A program made the translations under genes and the position numbers. A stretch of DNA of 35,746 nt, taken from Acidobacteriota bacterium (GTDB lineage Bacteria > Acidobacteriota > Holophagae > Holophagales > Holophagaceae). Shown in pieces: positions 31,336-35,421 of the stretch (position 1 is the stretch's first letter; each line of letters begins with the position of its first letter). The DNA is taken from positions 1 to 35,746 of the forward strand of contig JAJZQW010000021.1 in the NCBI GenBank assembly GCA_021802985.1, read 5' to 3'. Below the pieces are notes generated by a model that was not told the origin of the DNA, searched no databases, and saw only the letters and a list, made by a program, of their open reading frames with translations.

Positions 31336-32301
31336 CTATTTCGGCGCCGGGGCCTGCTTCGCCGCTTCCACGGCCTGCCGCGCCTTCGCGTGCTCGGCCT
31401 CGCTGGGCGTGCCCCAGACCACCCGGTTCGGCTTCTGTTTCAGGATCTGGAGCAGCTCCTCCACGGAGTCCAGGGAGCGGCGCAGGGTCTTGAGGCTGGC
31501 CGCCAGTTCGGGCTGGTCCTCGGTGCGGAACTGGCCCAGCAGCGCGTCCGCCTGCTGGAGCGTGGACGCCAGGCTCACCAGGATGCGGTCCAGCTCCGGC
31601 TTCCGCGTCTCCAGCAGGCTGCGGGTCACGGCCAGGCTCTTCTCCAGATCCGCCAGCGCCTTGTCGGCCTCGCCCATGCTCTTGTCCGCATGCCCCACCA
31701 GACCGCGGCTCTCCTTGGCCAGGGCCTGGAATTCCTGGAGCGTGCCGTTCAAAGCCTGGAGGGCCTGCTTCACGGAGGGATGGTCCAGCACATCGCCCAG
31801 CCCCTTGGTGCGCAGGCGGTCCCGCAGGGCCTCCACGCTTGCGTTGAGGGTGTCGAGCAGGCGGTCGGCCTTCTCCAGCACGCCGTTGATGGAGACGCCC
31901 TGGTCGCCGGGGATCTCGTCACCCGGGGCCAGGGCCACTTGCCGATCCGCGGGATCCGGCAACTGCAGGTCGAGGAAGGCGCTGCCCAGCCCCCGGGTGG
32001 CCACCAGGGCGCGCGTGCCGCGCCAGAGCCGGATGTCCTGGCGGATGGAGAGGGTGGCGAGGAAGTGGTAGTCCACACCCTCCTGGCGCATGTCCACCCG
32101 GTCCACCGCGCCCACACGGTAGCCCCTCAGCTGCACATCGCTGCCCGGCGCCAGGCCCTCCATGCTGTCCAGGCGCACCACCAGGGGATAGGTCTTCTCC
32201 ACCACGGCGCGGGCGTTCTTGAAGACCAGCAGGCCCAGGAACAGCACGATGGCTGCGAGGACGAAGACACCCAGCCGGACATCCTGCTTCTCGAAGTTCA
32301 T
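31336..32301 (-). CDS. mlaD: MlaD-like MCE-domain lipid-transport protein
   Basis: This is a 321-residue inner-membrane-anchored periplasmic protein. Residues 8-27 form the N-terminal signal anchor (LGVFVLAAIVLFLGLLVF). The single MCE domain (about 37-135) begins YPLVVRLDSMEGLAPGSDV and contains RGYRVGAVDRVDM, the usual six-stranded barrel that makes a hexameric lipid tunnel. A long helical C-terminus with heptad-like Leu spacing (140-300) is longer than in E. coli MlaD, more like the PqiB/YebT or MCE needle families, and may form a coiled-coil tube. It is the last gene after mlaE and mlaF; its start overlaps the mlaF stop (ATGA). No mlaB or mlaC partner is present. Confidence 0.92.
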   Translation of the reverse strand: MNFEKQDVRLGVFVLAAIVLFLGLLVFKNARAVVEKTYPLVVRLDSMEGLAPGSDVQLRGYRVGAVDRVDMRQEGVDYHFLATLSIRQDIRLWRGTRALVATRGLGSAFLDLQLPDPADRQVALAPGDEIPGDQGVSINGVLEKADRLLDTLNASVEALRDRLRTKGLGDVLDHPSVKQALQALNGTLQEFQALAKESRGLVGHADKSMGEADKALADLEKSLAVTRSLLETRKPELDRILVSLASTLQQADALLGQFRTEDQPELAASLKTLRRSLDSVEELLQILKQKPNRVVWGTPSEAEHAKARQAVEAAKQAPAPK

Positions 32302-32972
32302 CGGGGCTCCTCGGCGGATGGGGAGAGGTGGTTCGACGACAGGTGCAGACGCCGCGCGGGAAGGCCGGCGAAGGGGCCGGGTTCCTCCAGGGCCAGGACG
32401 ACGGTGCGGGCCGGATCCTCCGCCCAGCCCCGGATCAGGTCCAGGACGCCGGGCCGGTCGTCGCTCTCCACGCCCTCCAGTGGATCGTCCAGCAGGATCA
32501 GCTCCGGCTCCAGGGCCGCCACGCGGGCCAGGTTGGCCAGCTTGCGATCCCCGGCGCTCACCGCATGGGGCCGCCCATCCGCCACGGATGTCAGCCCGAA
32601 GCGGGCCAGGGCGGCGCTCGTCCGCGCGGCGGCCTCCGCTTCGGGCACGCCCGCGAAGCGCAGGGGCAGGGCCACGTTGTCCCGCAAGGTCTGATTGGAC
32701 AGCAGGCCACCCTGGGCAAAGACAAAACCCAGGCGCAGGTGGCCCACCAGGGCCAGGACGCCCGCCCCTGGCCAGGTATCCACCCCGCCCACGCGGACGC
32801 GCCCCGCGCGGGGCGGAAGCGTGCCCGCGAGCACCCGCAGGAACTGGCTCTTGCCACTGCCGCCCGGGCCCAGCAGCAGCAGATCTGCGCCCCGTTCCAG
32901 GGACAGGTGAAGGCCCGCCAGCAGGGGCCGGCCATCGGGGGCGTCCAGGGCGAGATCGTCGATCTGGATCAT
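32298..32972 (-). CDS. mlaF: MlaF-like ABC ATPase with degenerate catalytic motifs
   Basis: This is a 224-residue ATP-binding subunit of an Mla-type phospholipid transporter. Walker A is intact (GPGGSGKS, 35-42), and the Q-loop region FVFAQGGLLSNQTLRDNV (84-100) matches MlaF. The rest is unusual: the signature LSGGQ is VSAGD (138-142); Walker B reads LILLDDP (158-164) with Asp163 where the catalytic Glu should be; the D-loop is LEGVES (165-170) without its Asp; and the H-loop His position is Glu196 in LALEEPG. It lies between mlaE (stop 2 bases upstream) and mlaD (4-base overlap). ATG 32972 is the only sensible start. It may bind ATP with little hydrolysis, or use altered catalysis. Confidence 0.85.
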   Translation of the reverse strand: MIQIDDLALDAPDGRPLLAGLHLSLERGADLLLLGPGGSGKSQFLRVLAGTLPPRAGRVRVGGVDTWPGAGVLALVGHLRLGFVFAQGGLLSNQTLRDNVALPLRFAGVPEAEAAARTSAALARFGLTSVADGRPHAVSAGDRKLANLARVAALEPELILLDDPLEGVESDDRPGVLDLIRGWAEDPARTVVLALEEPGPFAGLPARRLHLSSNHLSPSAEEPR

Positions 32973-32974
32973 GG

Positions 32975-33760
32975 TCAGAAGTAGAAGAAGGCGGTCACGA
33001 GGCCGTCCAGCAGGAAGACCGCCACCAGGGCGGAGACGACCGTCTTGGTGACGGCCTGGGGAATCTCGGTCTGGCTGCGCCGGATGCGCAGGCCGTAGTG
33101 GCAGGCGTGGAAGGTGATGGCCCCGCTGAAGAGGACCACCTTCAGCAGCGTGGCCACCAGGTCGCGGTTCATGAGGGCATCGCGCACCGAGTCCATGAAG
33201 AACCCCAGCGTCACGCCATGCTTGAGCCACGCCACCAGGAAGCCACCGGCCAGGGCCGCCGCGTCGAAGAACATGACCAGGGCGAACACAGACAGCATGA
33301 CCCCCAGCCAGCGGGGCAGCAGCAGGTACTGGTAGGGATTGACGCCGTGGGCCGCCAGGGCGTCCACCTCCCCGTTCAGTTGCATGGTGCCCAGCTCGGC
33401 GGCGATGGCCGTGGCACTGCGGCCGATCACCAGCACCGCCGTGAGCAGGGGCCCCAGCTCGCGGATGATAATGAGCACCATGAGCAGGCCGAGGTAGTTC
33501 TCGGCGCCCAGGCCCGAGAGCTGGCTGAAGGCCTGGATCAACGTCACGGCCCCCAGCAGCAGGGCCGTACCGCTGACCAGCAGCAGCGCGTCCAGGCCCG
33601 TGAAGCGGACCTGAAGCCGGGTCTGGCCCCCCACCACGCCGAGCTGGTCCAGGCGCAGCGACAGACCGTAGCGGAGGGTCTGTGCCACCAGGTGCGCCTG
33701 ATCGCCCAGGAACACCAGGAAGCCGCGCACCGGCGCACCCAGCCTCGCCAGAAAGCCCAT
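32975..33760 (-). CDS. mlaE: MlaE-like ABC transporter permease
   Basis: This is a 261-residue inner-membrane permease of the MlaE/Mce4-YrbE family. Five or six hydrophobic segments are present: an amphipathic interface helix (about 1-30), TM pairs around 55-75 and 90-115, and a C-terminal group at 150-175, 205-220 and 235-255. The family's coupling motif is conserved (RELGPLLTAVLVIGRSATAI then AAELGTMQLNGEVDALAAHG, residues 102-141). It dimerises and, with MlaF and MlaD, moves phospholipids between inner and outer membranes. ATG 33760 is preceded by GGAGCGGAG. It is first in the mlaE-mlaF-mlaD operon and follows a CAP-domain gene by 46 bases. Confidence 0.95.
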   Translation of the reverse strand: MGFLARLGAPVRGFLVFLGDQAHLVAQTLRYGLSLRLDQLGVVGGQTRLQVRFTGLDALLLVSGTALLLGAVTLIQAFSQLSGLGAENYLGLLMVLIIIRELGPLLTAVLVIGRSATAIAAELGTMQLNGEVDALAAHGVNPYQYLLLPRWLGVMLSVFALVMFFDAAALAGGFLVAWLKHGVTLGFFMDSVRDALMNRDLVATLLKVVLFSGAITFHACHYGLRIRRSQTEIPQAVTKTVVSALVAVFLLDGLVTAFFYF

Positions 33761-33806: not shown

Positions 33807-34430
33807 TCAGCGGTCCGCCACGAACCCGTCCGCGTAGTCGATGACGCAGACCGTGCCGTACTCCGTGTGGGGCGCGGCGCCGGCACCGGCCTGGTGGAGA
33901 TCGGGATTGAAGAGGTTCTTGCGATGGCCCCGGCTCGGCACACCGTCATCCACCAGCAGCTGGATCACCACCATCCGGGCATCGTCCTCCCCGGCGCTGA
34001 TGTTCTCCGCGACCCTCGTGTTCCAGTGCCCCAGCCGGTCCAGGCGCGCCGCGGGCCCGCTGCCGTCCGCCCCCTGGTGGCTGAGCAGCCCATGAGAGCC
34101 CAGATACTGGGCATGCTGGCGCGCGGCCCGGGCCAGGCCCGCATTGAAGCGCAGGGGCCCAGCCGGCCGCACCGTTTCGAGGAATCGGATGGCCTCGTCC
34201 AGGGCCGCCACGCCCTCCTGTGTTCGCAGGGGGATCTTCCCGGGCAGCCGCCAGAGGGTGCCCTCGAAGTCCGATCGCAGCGCTTTCAGGCGTCCTGCAT
34301 AGACCAGCGGCGCCACGCGGGCATCGCTCATTTCCTGGACCACCGCCCGCTCAAAGGCGGTGGGGCGCTCGGGCACGGAAGCTCCCGCCGGGAGGAGCAG
34401 GACGGCAAAGAGGGGTGCAGCGAGTCTCAT
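33807..34430 (-). CDS. CAP/SCP-domain secreted protein
   Basis: This is a 207-residue exported protein. Residues 1-19 form a signal peptide (MRLAAPLFAVLLLPAGASV). The C-terminal half is a CAP (CRISP/antigen-5/PR1) domain: LRFNAGLARAARQHAQYLGSHG, then HQGADGSGPAARLDRLG, then VAENISAGED, then SRGHRKNLFNPDLHQAGAGAA, with the His/Glu residues of the cavity (His and Glu near 117, 145-146, 173). Bacterial CAP proteins are secreted or periplasmic and mostly of unknown function. I chose ATG 34430 over an upstream in-frame start at 34493, which would lie inside the cysK gene end. It sits between cysK and mlaE. Confidence 0.9.
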   Translation of the reverse strand: MRLAAPLFAVLLLPAGASVPERPTAFERAVVQEMSDARVAPLVYAGRLKALRSDFEGTLWRLPGKIPLRTQEGVAALDEAIRFLETVRPAGPLRFNAGLARAARQHAQYLGSHGLLSHQGADGSGPAARLDRLGHWNTRVAENISAGEDDARMVVIQLLVDDGVPSRGHRKNLFNPDLHQAGAGAAPHTEYGTVCVIDYADGFVADR

Positions 34431-34464
34431 GGGATCCCCGGATGATCCAACCCAGGATAGGCCC

Positions 34465-35421
34465 TCAGACCGCGGGCCCGTCCATCTCGGCATAGAGCGG
34501 ATGGCTCAGGTAGCGCTCGCCGGTGTCGCAGAGTACGGCCACCACCGTCTTGCCCCGGCCCAGTTCCACCGCCACCTGCACGGCGGCGTGGACGATGGCG
34601 CCGGTGCTGATGCCGGAGAGCAGCGCCTCCTCGCGGGCAAGGCGGCGGGCCATGGCCAGGGCATCGTCGTAGGCGACGTCGGTGATGCGCTGGAAGGCCG
34701 CGCGGTTGAGGATCGAGGGCACGAAGTTGGCGCCGAGGCCCTGGATCTTGTGCGGGCCCGCCTTCCCTTGGGTGAGGATGGGCGAATCCAGCGGTTCCAC
34801 GGCCACCACCAGGGTGCCGGGCTTCTTCTGCGCCAGCACCTCGCCCACGCCCGTGATGGTGCCGCCCGTGCCGATGCCCGCCACGAAGGCATCCAGCTCA
34901 GGCACCTGGGCCAGCACTTCCAGGGCGGTGGTGCGCCGGTGGATCTCGGGATTGGCGGGATTGTCGAACTGGCGCACCACGAAGAAGGTTGGATCCGCGG
35001 CGGCCAGCTCCTCCGCCTTGTCCACGGCGCCCTTCATGCCCAGGGAGCCCGGCGTCAGCACCAGCTCCGCGCCGTAGGCCTTCAACAGCGACCGGCGCTC
35101 CTGGGTCATGGTGTCGGGCATCACCAGCGTCGAGGGGTAGCCCTTGGCCGCGGCCACGAAGGCCAGGCCCACGCCCGTGTTGCCGCTGGTGGCCTCCAGG
35201 ATGCGCATGCCGGGCTTCAGGACCCCGCGGGCCTCGGCGTCCTCGATCATGCTGAGGGCGATGCGGTCCTTCACGGAGCCGCCGGGGTTGGCGCTCTCCA
35301 GCTTCAGGTAGATCGTGGCGGCGCCTGCGGGCACCACCCGGTTGAGGCGCACCACCGGCGTGTGGCCGATGAGCTGGTAGGCGTGGTCGACGCGGTTCGG
35401 GCGGTCGGTCGGATGGCTCAT
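34465..35421 (-). CDS. cysK: Cysteine synthase (O-acetylserine sulfhydrylase)
   Basis: This is a 318-residue PLP enzyme making cysteine from O-acetylserine and sulfide. LESANPGGSVKDR (residues 41-53) contains the Schiff-base Lys51, EATSGNTGVGLAF (near 75-87) binds substrate, and GIGTGGTITGVGE (near 180-192) holds the cofactor phosphate. ISTGAIVHAAV near 280 completes the active site. The length matches CysK. I prefer ATG 35421, eight bases after GAAGGAG, over an in-frame start at 35442. It is divergent from an Rrf2 regulator and has a good promoter (TTGACA, 16-base spacer, CATACT) overlapped by a near-palindrome, so Rrf2 probably controls it in response to sulfur or iron-sulfur status. Confidence 0.95.
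   Translation of the reverse strand: MSHPTDRPNRVDHAYQLIGHTPVVRLNRVVPAGAATIYLKLESANPGGSVKDRIALSMIEDAEARGVLKPGMRILEATSGNTGVGLAFVAAAKGYPSTLVMPDTMTQERRSLLKAYGAELVLTPGSLGMKGAVDKAEELAAADPTFFVVRQFDNPANPEIHRRTTALEVLAQVPELDAFVAGIGTGGTITGVGEVLAQKKPGTLVVAVEPLDSPILTQGKAGPHKIQGLGANFVPSILNRAAFQRITDVAYDDALAMARRLAREEALLSGISTGAIVHAAVQVAVELGRGKTVVAVLCDTGERYLSHPLYAEMDGPAV

Follow-up and report, generated by a model that had tools for sequence, protein, structure and literature searches.

A degenerate MlaF subunit conserved across Holophagaceae and a possible ATP-free mode of MCE lipid transport

Can an MCE lipid transporter be maintained when its only ATPase subunit has lost most of the residues expected for ATP hydrolysis? 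The question is raised by an operon in the window, by which we mean the whole analysed stretch of 35,746 nt, from a genome of the group of Geothrix, a genus of soils and sediments (Holophagaceae, Acidobacteriota; 72% complete). Three adjoining genes, all on the minus strand and in the order mlaE-mlaF-mlaD, encode an MlaE-type permease (32975..33760, (-); Pfam MlaE, PF02405, 1.1e-61), an MlaF-like putative pseudo-ATPase of 224 aa (32298..32972, (-); ABC_tran, PF00005, 3.9e-19, above the Pfam cut-off) and an MlaD-type MCE protein of 321 aa (31336..32301, (-); Pfam MlaD, PF02470, 2.6e-12; MCE family, 7.3e-23). The mlaF frame starts with ATG and is open throughout, and its stop and the mlaD start share 4 nt; an earlier note on this DNA had called the operon intact, in agreement with this arrangement. 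The membrane subunit belongs to the MlaE family and not to the PqiA/LetA type. With this permease, an MCE protein and an NBD fold in the MlaF position, the system is, judged from sequence, an MlaEFD-type MCE lipid transporter by descent. Its single NBD gene accompanies a single permease gene, and no second NBD is present that could complete one good site. No RNA element was found in the region around the operon. Directly upstream of mlaE lies a gene for a CAP-domain protein (PF00188; window positions 33807-34493, (-)), and in G. fermentans (L131) a similar CAP gene sits between a cysK-like gene and mlaE.

An AlphaFold2 model of the MlaF-like subunit shows an ABC fold (pLDDT 92, pTM 0.88). A fold search with this model returned Z values of 24-26 to ABC NBDs and 23.9 to MlaF (6xgz), a tie that singles out no MlaF among ABC NBDs; the membership of the window's NBD in the MlaF family rests on operon and sequence. 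The MlaD structure was predicted poorly (pLDDT 51), and its long helical C-terminal part is a hint from that model only.

Catalytic motifs of the window's MlaF

In ABC ATPases, the Q-loop serves coupling, the signature completes the ATP sandwich, and the Walker B glutamate and the H-loop histidine serve hydrolysis. We set the positions of these motifs by alignment with E. coli MlaF. Walker A, GPGGSGKSQ (residues 35-43; 32844..32870, (-)), is intact here, although it is lost in most other genera. At the Q-loop position, Ala86 (32715..32717, (-)) replaces Gln92 of E. coli MlaF, with a Gln present one residue further on. The signature reads VSAGD (residues 138-142; 32547..32561, (-)) in place of LSGGM, Asp163 of the Walker B motif LILLDD (32484..32501, (-)) occupies the position of the catalytic Glu170, and Glu196 (32385..32387, (-)) of the H-loop LALEEP that of His203. 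Among the residues of a functional ATPase, Walker A is thus present, and the Q-loop Gln, the LSGG signature, the Walker B Glu and the H-loop His are all absent. Also missing is the C-terminal "handshake" extension (224 aa in total, compared with 269 in E. coli MlaF and 269-278 in the canonical paralogue discussed below), the loss of which abolishes function in E. coli MlaF (PMC5016091, PMC7367683). In the E. coli MlaF and MlaE reference sequences used for alignment, the motif residues match the published positions (K47, E170 and G147 in PMC7367683; MlaE E98, K205 and D250 in PMC7790496).

The earlier note, written by eye, had described a perfect Walker A next to a changed signature, Walker B and H-loop, and feared that its positions might be off by one or two. 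The alignment reproduces all four readings, and a shifted register restoring canonical residues could be ruled out; the Q-loop and handshake losses are additions to that list. Its D-loop without Asp is correct for the window, where Glu169 (32466..32468, (-)) of LEGVES stands for Asp176 of E. coli MlaF, but does not describe Geothrix as a whole: Asp is kept in 37 of 42 Geothrix sequences, and its loss is confined to the five-genome subclade of the window.

Orthologues across the lineage

Our survey covered Acidobacteriota. The degenerate-type permease occurs in 56 of the 77 genomes of the family, spanning seven genera, and in three genomes of two other Acidobacteriota classes; wherever the contig extends far enough, NBD and MCE genes adjoin it. 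We aligned 58 orthologues of the MlaF subunit (42 from the Geothrix group, 14 from six other Holophagaceae genera and two from outside the family) with 37 canonical MlaF controls (21 same-genus paralogues and 16 from other Acidobacteriota). Motif losses were found in all 58 orthologues. Neither the H-loop His nor an intact signature is present in any of them (0/58 each), the Q-loop Gln is absent in 56 and the Walker B Glu in 50, the remaining eight being six Geothrix sequences and two others; 17 of 57 have lost the Walker A Lys. All these motif residues are present in every control (37/37). A 59th sequence (L153), read by eye, is without the P-loop Lys, the signature, the Glu and the His.

The operon is carried by the cultured isolates G. 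fermentans, G. rubra, G. limicola, G. campi, G. fuzhouensis, G. oryzisoli, G. paludis and G. terrae as well as by single-contig genomes, which rules out decay or an assembly artefact in one genome, and the frame stays open at near-constant length over seven genera. Homologues with normal residues in the same clade would, according to the earlier note, have marked this copy as merely decaying; none of the 58 carries the full canonical set. The alignments thus place the motif loss at the level of the clade, not of one decaying copy, and the same note's judgement that the losses are not random decay is borne out by their recurrence in seven genera, the open frames and the purifying selection described below. 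Five genomes of the window's genus (G023, G027, G038, G043 and G045) are without the degenerate operon, two of them more than 90% complete though fragmented, and possibly form a subgroup that lost it. In two loci (L114, and L038 in G026) the mlaF frame extends past its usual end to 253 aa, probably through a frameshift in a fragmented assembly.

The residues that took the place of the canonical ones bear on a further proposal of the earlier note, that an altered catalytic set is kept across the lineage. The orthologues give this proposal no support, as their replacements do not converge: the equivalent of E170 became D, A, G, R, Q or L, that of H203 E, D, G, A or S, and that of K47 R, A, S, C or G. 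Within Geothrix, the change of the H-loop His to Glu is invariant (42/42) and 32 of 42 sequences have Asp in place of the Walker B Glu, a pattern that could reflect a different catalytic arrangement with slow hydrolysis. However, the same Walker B position varies among D, E, A and G inside Geothrix, no convergence is seen outside it, where the P-loop is lost, and the Q-loop and the signature are gone as well; we therefore regard an active ATPase of this non-canonical kind as very improbable.

The P-loop, in turn, bears on nucleotide binding. In Geothrix its Lys persists in 37 of 41 sequences, its glycines are invariant in the alignment, and the Walker B Asp is present in 42 of 42. This retention would be hard to explain in a genus with no use for ATP binding, and it makes an ATP-binding gate the main rival of the reading we prefer: Geothrix MlaF would bind ATP without hydrolysing it and thereby gate a passive conduit, with the other genera losing binding later. 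Against this, the motif reads GxxGxGRG in G. terrae, G. paludis and Geothrix sp. SG200 (Lys to Arg, Ser to Gly), and the P-loop is missing altogether from most non-Geothrix genera, which argues that the clade does not need ATP binding; nor is there an intact signature to sandwich the nucleotide. ATP binding without hydrolysis is possible, in Geothrix only, where the P-loop mostly persists, and an ATP-sensing gate appears unlikely. The most basal relative (L135, in G143) has kept the P-loop and the Q-loop Gln and lost the signature, the Walker B Glu and the H-loop His, which suggests that ATP binding was lost later than the catalytic residues.

Among MlaF mutants of E. coli (PMC5016091, PMC7367683), K47R has neither ATPase activity nor function, and complementation fails with K47A and with E170Q. 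Three isolates carry a natural equivalent of K47R in addition to losses in four further motifs, so that transport powered by ATP as in E. coli is very unlikely for the degenerate system. The motif comparison gives good support to a loss of hydrolysis throughout its lineage, the Walker B Glu still found in six Geothrix and two other orthologues being a point against the pseudo-ATPase reading.

Selection, the permease and the canonical paralogue

We estimated dN/dS by the Nei-Gojobori method from 22 close pairs for degenerate mlaF and 8 pairs for canonical mlaF, the values being approximate. For degenerate mlaF the median is 0.28 (0.11-0.47), and all 22 pairs lie below 0.5; its operon partners mlaE and mlaD reach 0.095 and 0.16, and canonical mlaF 0.11. 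Identities to the window's genome point the same way. In the degenerate operon, MlaE is 79-86% and MlaF 53-61% identical over most of Geothrix (higher in the closest genomes, lower in G035), whereas in the canonical operon MlaF (86-94%) and MlaE (82-92%) stand in the inverse order. From the dN/dS values and these inverted identities, selection on degenerate mlaF appears relaxed but not neutral.

A two- to threefold higher dN/dS than in the canonical paralogue, the absence of the operon from some Geothrix genomes and the overlap of the mlaF stop with the mlaD start could together suggest a gene on its way out, its frame persisting mainly through translational coupling to mlaD. Such slow decay is very improbable in view of the values below 0.5 in every pair, the near-constant frame length in seven genera, the confidently predicted intact fold and the pattern of conservation within the protein. 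In the ABC architecture, the contact with the coupling helix of the permease is expected just after the Q-loop. This segment (residues 88-106; 32655..32711, (-)) is the most conserved stretch of degenerate MlaF among divergent representatives (100th percentile), followed by RPHAV ahead of the signature. In the comparison of degenerate with canonical MlaF, Walker A stands at the 48th versus the 94th percentile, the signature at the 46th versus the 99th and the H-loop at the 25th versus the 86th. Conservation has thus shifted away from the catalytic motifs and onto the segment where ABC architecture leads one to expect the permease contact. Altogether, residues assigned to coupling, the ATP sandwich and hydrolysis are gone in essentially all aligned orthologues, and the fold, the expected contact segment and the operon bear the marks of selection.

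The permease has changed as well. In the MlaE tree, sequences from degenerate operons form one clade (100/100) on a long branch, apart from canonical MlaE including that of E. coli. Two loci from another Acidobacteriota class (L134 in G235 and L153 in G525) have degenerate mlaEFD operons whose MlaE groups with that of the non-Geothrix Holophagaceae genera, a placement that suggests horizontal transfer of the pseudo-ATPase system. The MlaE coupling helix lies between TM2 and TM3 (PMC7790496); with this location and an alignment to E. coli MlaE, we predict it in the window at 33335..33400, (-) (AELGTMQLNGEVDALAAHGVNP), where the TEQ-like motif has become NGE. Throughout the degenerate clade this motif is NGE or SGE, with G, D or R where canonical proteins mostly have E or Q. 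The alteration of the coupling helix alongside MlaF points to a joint change of permease and NBD, and the "ordinary" MlaE of the earlier note does not fully hold up. Of the E. coli MlaE residues E98, K205 and D250, the first two have retained equivalents in the degenerate clade, and the third has one in Geothrix but has been lost in several other genera.

A second mlaF with canonical residues, for which the earlier note proposed to search, is present in the window's own genome: an MlaEFD operon (G000:C16, L066) with the same three gene families in the same order. Its MlaD measures about 488 aa from the likely start, compared with 321 aa in the degenerate operon, and its C-terminal portion seems rich in strands, a trait of barrel-bearing MlaD. 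All ATPase motifs of the canonical paralogue are intact in 21 of 21 genomes, and almost all genomes bearing the degenerate operon also have canonical MlaEFD. A canonical ATPase from elsewhere, such as this paralogous MlaF, could energise the degenerate permease as a homodimer or as a heterodimer with degenerate MlaF, much as the unlinked mycobacterial MceG serves several Mce systems (PMC9947336). With signature and Walker B/H-loop lost in one chain, however, a heterodimer with canonical MlaF would have both composite sites damaged, and the restoration of one good site is argued against by the location of all losses in that same chain. The departure of the MlaE coupling helix in parallel with its own MlaF and the selection on the operon's own NBD also weigh against a borrowed motor, as does a genome (G017, L152; 96% complete, 340 contigs) with the degenerate operon in which canonical mlaE and mlaF were undetected. 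We consider a borrowed motor improbable. If the absence in G017 is real, the degenerate system would be independent of the canonical one.

A possible passive conduit and its relation to known systems

The explanation we favour, with a probability of roughly 0.52, is a clade-wide pseudo-ATPase kept as a clamp on MlaE, giving an ATP-free MCE lipid conduit. Two copies of degenerate MlaF would sit on the cytoplasmic coupling helices of an MlaE dimer and hold it together in a conducting form; the dimer would be kept in a nucleotide-free, outward-open state or be allowed to settle there. Following their gradient and with no power stroke from ATP, lipids might then move between the inner membrane, the cavity of MlaE and a tube formed by a long helical MlaD, a mode also proposed for the ATPase-less MCE systems PqiAB and LetAB. 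The canonical MlaEFD paralogue in that genome would take care of ATP-driven transport. That the lineage conducts lipids in a stably ATP-independent manner, with both nucleotide sites dead and the NBD only a permease clamp, is about an even bet. Passive lipid flow was among the readings offered by the earlier note and is possible; one study (PMC10212509) reports that lipids pass from MlaD to MlaC without ATP and that hydrolysis suppresses this transfer. The family does not function passively by default, since inactive MlaF in E. coli (PMC5016091, PMC7367683) and inactive MceG in Mycobacterium tuberculosis (PMC9947336) abolish transport.

The ATP need of Mla and MCE systems and the direction of ATP-free lipid movement are still argued, and the degenerate lineage offers a natural experiment: it coexists with the canonical paralogue in the same cells, including several cultured isolates, in which ATP-free lipid movement is directly testable. 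If our reading is right, a passive conduit has been separated naturally from an ATP-driven pump that is kept as a paralogue in the same cell. Annotation by family models blind to motifs would label degenerate MlaF an ordinary ABC ATP-binding protein. Our search of the open-licence literature found no degenerate MlaF or pseudo-ATPase in MCE systems.

Among known systems, MlaFEDB of E. coli and MlaEFD of Veillonella parvula (PMC10665443) are alike in permease, NBD fold, MCE protein, E-F-D order and mlaF/mlaD overlap, and the latter also in its long MlaD and in an operon without MlaA or MlaC; both differ from the window's system, in which the catalytic motifs and the handshake are lost and the MlaE coupling helix is changed, and the window's MlaD is the shorter one (321 aa, compared with 419 in Veillonella). 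The canonical paralogue shares families and order and differs by its intact motifs, the higher identity of its MlaF (range given above) and a longer MlaD. PqiABC and LetAB are MCE tubes without an ABC ATPase (PMC12436622) and resemble the degenerate system in the proposed mode of action only, as their membrane subunit is PqiA/LetA with no NBD-like subunit, in place of MlaE and an NBD. Mce1 and Mce4 of M. tuberculosis with their shared MceG (PMC9947336) have YrbE/MlaE-type permeases and MCE proteins, and their ATPase also stabilises the complex; MceG, however, is a canonical ATPase that needs its Walker B, whereas the window's MlaF is degenerate. Heterodimeric ABC exporters with one degenerate site (PMC7756269) likewise have an NBD that lacks the Walker B Glu and the H-loop His yet keeps its fold and serves a structural purpose, but one active site remains in their dimer; with one NBD gene, the operon described here would have both sites dead and, if our reading is correct, would represent an ABC transporter unlike those degenerate exporters.
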